A stretch of 64,000 nucleotides of DNA from Syntrophomonas sp. DTU019. GTDB lineage: Bacteria; Bacillota; Syntrophomonadia; Syntrophomonadales; Syntrophomonadaceae. A program made the position numbers and the translations under genes. Positions 45,783 through 47,256 of this stretch are shown here, in pieces. Positions within the stretch are counted from its first letter, which is position 1. Each line of letters starts with the position of its first letter. The notes beneath the pieces were generated by a model that ran no database searches, was not told the DNA's origin, and was given only the letters and a program-made list of their open reading frames with translations. The stretch is from positions 62,001 through 126,000 of the forward strand of contig CAJYDM010000006.1 in assembly GCA_913757435.1 (NCBI GenBank), given 5' to 3'.

Positions 45783-46007
45783 GTACGGGCGGGGCTCTGC
45801 TTCGCCCGAAAAACCATTTTGCAGACATATCCGTAGGGGCGGGGCTCTGCTCCGCCTGAAGAACCATTTTGCAGACATATCTGTAGGGGCGGGGCTCTGC
45901 TCCGCCCGAAGAACCATTTTGCAGGATATCCGTAGGGGCGGGGCTCTGCTTCGCCCGAAGAATCATTTTGCAGACATATCCGTAGGGGCGGGGCTCTGCT
46001 CCGCCCG
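45783..46007 (+). repeat. Left REP array: five forward GTAG-headed hairpins
   Basis: Five near-identical units start at 45783, 45833, 45883, 45932 and 45982, a 49-50 base period. Each has GTAG (GTAC in the first), then left arm GGGCGGGGC, loop TCT and right arm GCTCCGCCC (some GCTTCGCCC). The 9-bp stem contains one G-T pair at a fixed place. The spacer AACCATTTTGCAGACATATC is shared. GTAG plus hairpin is the recognition form of REP sequences acted on by REP-associated tyrosine transposases, and such a gene lies just downstream. Confidence 0.9.
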
Positions 46008-46097
46008 CCTGAACATATAACCCAACATTTGGTAATAAAAACATGCTACAATGAACATTACTAGAGTTACGACATCAGGACATAGAAACAGCGTATC

Positions 46098-46124
46098 GTA
46101 CGGCAAGGGCTCTGCTCTTGCCGT
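46098..46124 (+). repeat. Compensated REP variant beside the transposase gene
   Basis: GTAC, left arm GGCAAGGGC, loop TCT, right arm GCTCTTGCC. Compared with the array unit, several stem positions change on both sides so that pairing is kept, including the G-T pair at the same position. It sits about 30 bases before the transposase start codon. Confidence 0.8.
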
Positions 46125-46155
46125 TCAATGATTGTTTATTCAAGGCGGTGATAAT

Positions 46156-46872
46156 TTGGAATTGCCGAAGAGGAAACGAATACGTTTAAAGGATTATGAT
46201 TATTCACAGGCAGGTTTTTATTTTATCACCATATGTTGTAAAGATAAGCAACACTATTTAGGAAAAATGTCGGGTCCTGAGAGGCGCTCTGCCCCAACCG
46301 TGTGCACACATGACACCGACATCCGTAGGGGCGGGGCTCTGCTCCACCCGTCGGTAGAATTGTCCGATGTTGGGCAAATCGTGTCAGAGCAATGGTTTGA
46401 ACTAAAAAACCGCTATCCCCGAATAGAGTTAGATCAATTTATAGTAATGCCAAACCATATCCACGGAATAATCATAATTAATGCTGAGCAGGCGGAGCAG
46501 AGCCCCGCCCCTACCACTGAATGCACCCGGTGCACTAATACCCGGGCGGAGCAGAGCCCCGCCCCTACAACCGAATGCAACCGGGGCACTGATACCCGGG
46601 CGGAGCAGAGCCCCACCCCTACCACCGAATGCACCCGGGGCACTGATACCCAGGTGGAGCAGAGCCCCGCCCCAACTATCGGCGCTATTATTTGTGCGTA
46701 TAAATCCATCACCACTAGACTAGCAAATAAAAAGCATAATGCACCAGGTCGTATTATTTGGCAGAGGAATTATTATGATCATGTCATTAGGGACGAAAGT
46801 GATTTGTTAAATATTAGACAATACATACAGGATAACCCATTTAAATGGGAAGAAGATAAATATTATTTTTAA
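46156..46872 (+). CDS. REP-associated tyrosine transposase (RAYT, Y1 family) carrying in-frame REP copies
   Basis: A 238-residue IS200-like single-strand transposase. Family marks: PKRKRIRLKDYDYSQAGFYF at the start, ITICCKDK, the metal-binding HUH motif in MPNHIHG near residue 100, GAIICAYKS, and WQRNYYDHVIRDE near 205 with the candidate catalytic Tyr. Two insertions interrupt the usual domain. One, about residues 42-66, is a decayed reverse copy plus a forward REP (IRRGGALLHPS). The other, about residues 110-175, is four reverse REP units translated as AEQSPAPT repeats. TTG 46156 has AAGGCGGTG 6 bases upstream. The frame is intact, so it may be active. Confidence 0.9.
   Translation: MELPKRKRIRLKDYDYSQAGFYFITICCKDKQHYLGKMSGPERRSAPTVCTHDTDIRRGGALLHPSVELSDVGQIVSEQWFELKNRYPRIELDQFIVMPNHIHGIIIINAEQAEQSPAPTTECTRCTNTRAEQSPAPTTECNRGTDTRAEQSPTPTTECTRGTDTQVEQSPAPTIGAIICAYKSITTRLANKKHNAPGRIIWQRNYYDHVIRDESDLLNIRQYIQDNPFKWEEDKYYF
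46281..46350. repeat. Inward-facing REP pair inside the RAYT gene
   Basis: A decayed reverse-oriented unit (46281-46299, followed by the GTGTGCAC spacer also found downstream) is followed by a clear forward unit at 46325-46350. Together they form a BIME-like pair with GTAG ends facing each other, translated in frame. Confidence 0.6.
46491..46676 (-). repeat. Four reverse REP units inside the RAYT coding sequence
   Basis: Units at 46491-46514, 46544-46568, 46598-46622 and 46652-46676. The distance between successive right ends is exactly 54 bases, so each adds 18 codons and keeps the frame. The last two show single-base decay (CCCCACCC; GGTGG and CAAC). They encode an AEQSPAPTTEC...GTDT repeat. 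Confidence 0.9.
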
Positions 46873-46882
46873 TCACGAGTGT

Positions 46883-46911
46883 CCACGGAATAATCATAAT
46901 TAATGCTGAGC
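46883..46911 (+). pseudogene. Duplicated fragment of the RAYT gene
   Basis: 29 bases identical to 46461-46489, the segment coding for HGIIIINAE just after the HUH motif, recur 10 bases after the RAYT stop and again lead into a reverse REP array. This is a partial copy of the gene's centre. Confidence 0.8.
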
Positions 46912-47256
46912 GGGCGGAGCAGAGCCCCGCCCCTACACGTGTGCACCCGGGGCACTGATACCCGGGCGGAGCAGAGCCCCGCCCCTACAACCGAATGCAA
47001 CCGGGGCACTGATAACCAGGCGGAGCAGAGCCCCGCCCCTACAACCGAATGCACCCGGGGCACTGATACCCAGGCGGAGCAGAGCCCCGCCCCTACTATC
47101 GAATGCACCCGGTGCACTGATACCTAGGCGGAGCAGAGCCCCGCCCCTACACGTGTGCACCCGGGGCACTGATACCCGGGCGGAGCAGAGCCCCGCCCCT
47201 ACCACTGAATGCAACCGGGGCACTGATAACCAGGCGGAGCAGAGCCCCGCCCCTAC
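46912..47256 (-). repeat. Right REP array: seven reverse units
   Basis: Units at 46912, 46964, 47018, 47072, 47126, 47178 and 47232, with a period of 54 or 52 bases, all with the GTAG end on the right (CTAC on the plus strand). Spacers are of two kinds: GAATGCA-CCGG type, some with the palindrome TGCACCCGGTGCA, and a shorter ACGTGTGCAC type. They differ from the left-array spacer. Confidence 0.9.

Follow-up and report, generated by a model that had tools for sequence, protein, structure and literature searches.

What kind of locus gathers eighteen copies of one hairpin around and inside a single transposase gene, and how does that gene come to carry them? The window, by which we mean the whole stretch of 64 kb that was analysed, contains such a locus. 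We read it as a REPtron, in which a RAYT (TnpA-REP) gene belonging to TnpA-Y1 subclass 2.4 (Bertels group 4) is accompanied by the GTAG REPs cognate to it, a reading that we hold with a confidence of about 0.85. The locus is of a known kind and an extreme member of it, and the extreme feature is the number of in-frame copies, not the phylum of the host.

The hairpins and their transposase

Scanning the window with the pattern GTAGGGGCGGGGCTCTGCTCCGCCCG, at up to 7 mismatches, yields 18 GTAG-type hairpins, all between 45783 and 47256 (Table 1), which agrees with the statement of the first-pass annotation that they occur essentially nowhere else in the 64 kb. Seventeen differ from the pattern by 0-3 mismatches, and the eighteenth, at 46098, by 7. 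This last hairpin reads GTAC GGCAAGGGC TCT GCTCTTGCC: since compensating changes leave its 9-bp stem fully base-paired, we rejected the idea of a decayed copy and regard it as a diverged variant. The annotation had announced 18 copies and one decayed one; the 18 are there, and the additional copy is one too many unless a fragment near 46284, GCGCTCTGC, a possible candidate, was meant. On both flanks of the RAYT locus the GTAG heads face outward.

Covariation supports the stem. Among 20 distinct variants, 18 from this genome and 2 from the relative G042, 97.2% of the stem cells are paired, three pairs are changed on both sides, and the covariation score was matched by none of 500 shuffles. A G.T wobble is kept in 19 of these 20 variants, and it is this near-invariant wobble that lets the GTAG strand fold better than its complement (-9.7 against -7.5 kcal/mol). 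A search of Rfam gave no match at the gathering threshold, and no tRNA lies near the locus.

The ORF in the middle of the hairpins, whose start is uncertain (TTG 46156 is an alternative to the one in Table 1), matches Pfam Y1_Tnp above the cut-off (E=1.3e-5) and the NCBIfam model of REP-associated tyrosine transposases (E=1.6e-16). A profile built from the window protein together with 46 homologues has a sole PDB match, 4ER8, a TnpA-REP. In the alignment with E. coli RayT, residues H59, H61 and Y115 are kept, as are W94, Q95, H101 and R104 among the GTAG-contact residues (taken from PMC6006769 and PMC8266576), with E100 replaced by D. The protein has the motifs NHIH, WQ and YIQDNP, the latter with D for the first N of YIxNNP. 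Together with the covarying hairpins, the two model matches confirm what had been proposed from the letters of the window: a RAYT-type single-strand transposase with a HUH motif in mid-locus, and GTAG hairpins around it that make a REP system.

One result counts against the REPtron reading here. The NCBIfam score, 60.5 bits for the whole protein and 68.7 without its inserts, does not reach the cut-off of 80, a curated annotation threshold which the literature does not use to define the family. Scores of 62-75 bits were obtained for three other homologues of the same group, and 179 for E. coli RayT; since these three also stay below the cut-off, the model seems to be tuned to other subclasses.

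Table 1. Features of the locus, in window positions, and three RAYT genes of another Firmicutes genome, G404
Feature	Position	Strand	Remarks
Upstream tandem array	45783..46008	+	5 REPs; unit 49-50 nt (REP and spacer GAAGAACCATTTTGCAGACATATCC)
Divergent REP variant	46098..46123	+	GTAC head; stem GGCAAGGGC/GCTCTTGCC; just 5' of the RAYT start
RAYT/TnpA-REP ORF	46132..46872	+	246 aa from TTG; NHIH (HUH), IWQRNYYDHVIR (GTAG contacts), YIQDNP (catalytic Tyr)
In-frame REP before the HUH motif	46325..46350	+	in the ORF; encodes RRGGALLHP; directly precedes VELSDVGQIV
30-nt coding segment	46460..46489	+	TCCACGGAATAATCATAATTAATGCTGAGC; just 5' of the internal array; identical copy at 46882-46911
In-frame internal array	46489..46676	-	in the ORF; 4 REPs; spacing exactly 54 nt (18 codons); between HUH strand and helix C
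Copy of the 30-nt segment	46882..46911	+	outside the gene; heads the downstream array
Downstream tandem array	46911..47256	-	7 REPs; spacing 52 or 54 nt; unit is that of the internal array
G404 RAYT gene L178	C1:175982-177022		
G404 RAYT gene L179	C14:65627-66592		
G404 RAYT gene L180	C3:246703-247503		

Repeats within the reading frame

Five REPs lie in frame within the RAYT gene: one before the HUH motif, and four in tandem between that motif and the catalytic tyrosine. The earlier description, "inside one Y1 transposase", is correct for these five copies, and merely hinted at their being in frame, which is the main point. The internal array is translated into 18-residue repeats, AEQSPAPT...TECxRGTDT, and alignment would place the inserts in loops of the protein. 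Inside the gene the spacing is 54, 54 and 54 nt, and in the outer arrays it is 52/54 and 49/50, a contrast that fits selection for frame in a sample too small to serve as a test. The 30-nt segment that precedes the internal array recurs exactly after the stop codon, which indicates that at least part of the downstream array is a copy of gene-internal sequence.

In-frame REPs between HuH and Y are a published hallmark of subclass 2.4 (Quentin et al. 2018, PMC6006769), and the trait is reproduced across phyla in our homologues. A GTAG hairpin lies between HUH and W/Y in 47 of 73 of them, for a total of 54 hairpins, with 1 more in the N part and 3 in the C part; shuffles predict 0.6, 0.4 and 0.6 for these three intervals. 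There are 54 hairpins in the 12.6 kb from HUH to W/Y versus 4 in the 24.8 kb of the rest of the coding core (binomial p about 3e-21, a value computed as if each hairpin were independent, whereas the genes are related). The 80 loci collected were chosen by an insert-free query, so that long inserts are under-sampled among them. Our own tree, which is poorly resolved and in which the E. coli branch is too long, puts the window RAYT among multi-phylum homologues with internal REPs.

Another, rarer insertion site lies before the motif VxLSxxGQIV. It is used at 46325 in the window, in the Omnitrophota locus L098 and in the Firmicutes genome G129 (locus L189), and it also appears beside a relic in G042. 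At the site of the window's 46325 repeat, L098 (2293-2853) and L189 (minus strand) carry a REP-derived peptide. Around 1501-1580 of locus L070 in G042, this relic of a broken RAYT (ELSNIGEIILEQWYV*) directly adjoins a REP of the window's family; it shares 32 of 43 nucleotides with the corresponding position of the window gene, and the next best ungapped match in L070 has 22.

The first-pass annotation set the Gram-positive host against the Proteobacteria, from which REP systems are best known, but a view of the locus as unusual on that account is not supported. A RAYT homologue is present in 28 of the 398 genomes of our sample of the phylum; several Firmicutes homologues have their own GTAG hairpins around or inside the gene, and there are Firmicutes homologues split by in-frame inserts at the same residue as the window gene. 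With homologues and internal REPs in several Firmicutes, this host is not exceptional. In G404, a Firmicutes genome of 6 Mb, RAYT genes (Table 1) have in-frame inserts at that same residue, between HUH and Tyr, which reach about 190 aa; one insert is built from about 25 copies of a five-residue repeat (GAPCQN-type) and has a GTAG hairpin on either side. Two further Firmicutes RAYT homologues, L058 and L062, have different arrays of GTAG hairpins upstream (GTAGGGAACGGTCTTGACCGTTCC; array of hairpin GGGCACGGCAGTGCCGTGCCCCTAC).

Three known systems come closest to the locus. Members of subclass 2.4 (PMC6006769) share NH[IFV]H, WQ and YIxxNP-type motifs with the window protein; both have GTAG REPs that flank the gene as well as in-frame REPs between HuH and Y, and both subclass 2.4 and the present group have a wide, patchy spread across phyla. 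The differences are four near-identical tandem units in the loop, where subclass 2.4 has one or two; a further in-frame REP ahead of the HUH motif; a single-foot REP with a G.T wobble in place of a double foot; and a Firmicutes host, a phylum not named for subclass 2.4 in the text of PMC6006769. The E. coli RayT REPtron (subclass 2.2, 4ER8) has in common with the window locus the HUH/Tyr core, the GTAG-contact residues and GTAG REPs in both orientations around the gene. However, the E. coli REPs have a bulged stem, number in the hundreds and are absent from the gene, and the window protein lacks the C-terminal tail of E. coli RayT. Intragenic GTAG/CGTC REPs and Rickettsia palindromic elements (Di Nocera et al. 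2013, PMC3733652) are likewise in-frame palindromes in coding genes; here, in contrast, the gene that carries them encodes the transposase of the REPs themselves, and they are arranged in tandem.

Copies elsewhere in the genome

Of the 41 copies of the REP that the genome contains within 3 mismatches, 17 belong to this locus and 24 are spread over 9 further places on six contigs; the reversed pattern, applied to the whole genome as a control, gives 0. The 24 distant copies are mostly intergenic, with no RAYT core beside them. The genome-wide count had been proposed with the first description of the locus: copies elsewhere do exist, in tens and not in the hundreds envisaged there, and the locus is the densest of a modest REP family. 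To call it the source locus, as that description did, is plausible, this being the sole RAYT of its kind found in the genome and the place of 17 of the 41 copies; the direction of spread that the term implies did not find support.

Four other full-length Y1 genes of the genome were set aside as a source of the REPs, since they are of a different type, with long C-terminal tails, and have no REP arrays nearby; the two that were kept in the tree fall apart from the window RAYT. Near these genes we found just one isolated heptamer, CCCCTAC/GTAGGGG, in L045. Among viral contigs, a single one (L152, 1946-1971; IMG/VR, 36 kb, filed as viral) holds one exact copy, which gives no sign of a phage-borne REP family. 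At a cluster of 11 REPs (L040, 3730-3755; G000:C5:109930), the gene upstream takes its TAG stop codon from the GTAG of the first REP.

Tandem periods differ from one locus to another (49-50, 52/54, 53/54, about 56 and 32 nt), and spacers are locus-specific, except that the 54-nt unit found here resembles one at C1:932442. Locus-specific arrays with one shared unit suggest that local growth and occasional dispersal both seem to be at work. Two aspects of this picture count against the REPtron reading: the copy number is low for a mobile family, and most copies stand in local arrays whose differing spacers slippage alone could explain.

It is possible, though we hold it to be clearly the less probable account, that the arrays are a plain tandem expansion, by slippage or recombination at a GC-rich hairpin, next to a RAYT that is a relic or a bystander and does not move REPs now. 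Locus-specific spacers are what slippage would give, and both the modest copy number and the broken relic that the same REP abuts in G042 point the same way. However, the REP occurs at nine other places, in most cases between unrelated flanks, so that something dispersed it; the ORF is open and keeps all its catalytic residues; and both the insertion site and the REP type recur in homologues from many phyla.

An account that we consider unlikely goes beyond tolerance and makes the HUH loop a dedicated site that carries and amplifies the enzyme's own substrate hairpin as a functional device. The internal REPs would link transposase and REP in horizontal transfer, let the protein limit its own expression by way of the hairpin in its gene or mRNA, or serve as a hypervariable protein loop. 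The excess of hairpins in the HUH-Tyr interval over the rest of the gene is what one would expect of such a device, and internal hairpins keep their pairing even as their sequence differs from lineage to lineage. Yet tolerance also explains the enrichment, because the loop accepts inserts that elsewhere would destroy the gene, and about a third of the homologues have no detectable internal hairpin. Either tolerance or use may have caused REPs to accumulate in the loop.

Acquisition and proposed history

The neighbours of the locus are miaA, hfq and spoVK on one side, followed by a PLP-dependent gene of the methionine gamma-lyase type (judging from gene order, probably ynbB) and by glnA. The succession miaA, hfq, spoVK, ynbB, glnA is one that we take to be the Bacillus-type order. 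The spoVK-ynbB gap, about 1.7 kb here, measures 136 bp in G001, of the same genus, and about 0-110 bp in several members of the family; by this comparison, the congener presents the empty site of the block. At 32-34%, the GC content of the RAYT core is below the 49% of the window; the nearest relatives of the RAYT in our tree are in other phyla. The empty site, the low GC and these relatives suggest that the RAYT locus was acquired horizontally. That the entire block could move as an IS200-like element, with inverted REP arrays for its ends, is highly improbable: the outward GTAG heads and the empty site would suit it, but the block has a single genome copy with no precise ends or target pattern, its homologues are low-copy and diverse, and the literature holds no evidence that tnpA-REP itself moves (PMC8266576).

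Under the REPtron reading, the anatomy of the window RAYT indicates that it should act on these REPs as characterised TnpA-REPs do: those of E. coli, Stenotrophomonas and Marinomonas recognise single-stranded GTAG hairpins in a strand-specific way, cleave nearby and transfer strands (PMC8266576). We infer the following order of events. A RAYT locus would have entered a spore-forming Firmicutes in the interval between spoVK and ynbB. Its product would bind the GTAG-headed strand as a single-stranded hairpin, and its HUH/tyrosine site would cleave nearby and transfer strands, so that REPs occasionally spread over the genome, plausibly outward from this locus. Local growth of the arrays would follow, through slippage or recombination among REPs or through repeated transfer of strands. 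Two loops of the transposase itself may have accepted REP insertions because the unit leaves the frame intact; the one that follows the HUH strand would then have expanded to four 54-nt units, and a piece of the gene with its array would have been copied downstream of the stop codon.

What is new here is the number of near-identical internal units, the second recurrent insertion site, the downstream array with its copied 30-nt piece of the gene, and the empty site in a congener. The locus also bears on annotation: in-frame inserts can split a Pfam domain, so that standard family searches can miss such genes, and a Pfam search of this genome missed the window RAYT gene. It is a clear case of a transposase gene that has absorbed several copies of a repeat probably mobilised by its own product, and yet is open. 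The survey across phyla, with internal REPs in close to two thirds of the homologues, turns a remark of one 2018 paper into a testable pattern, in which the internal REP is either tolerated or used.
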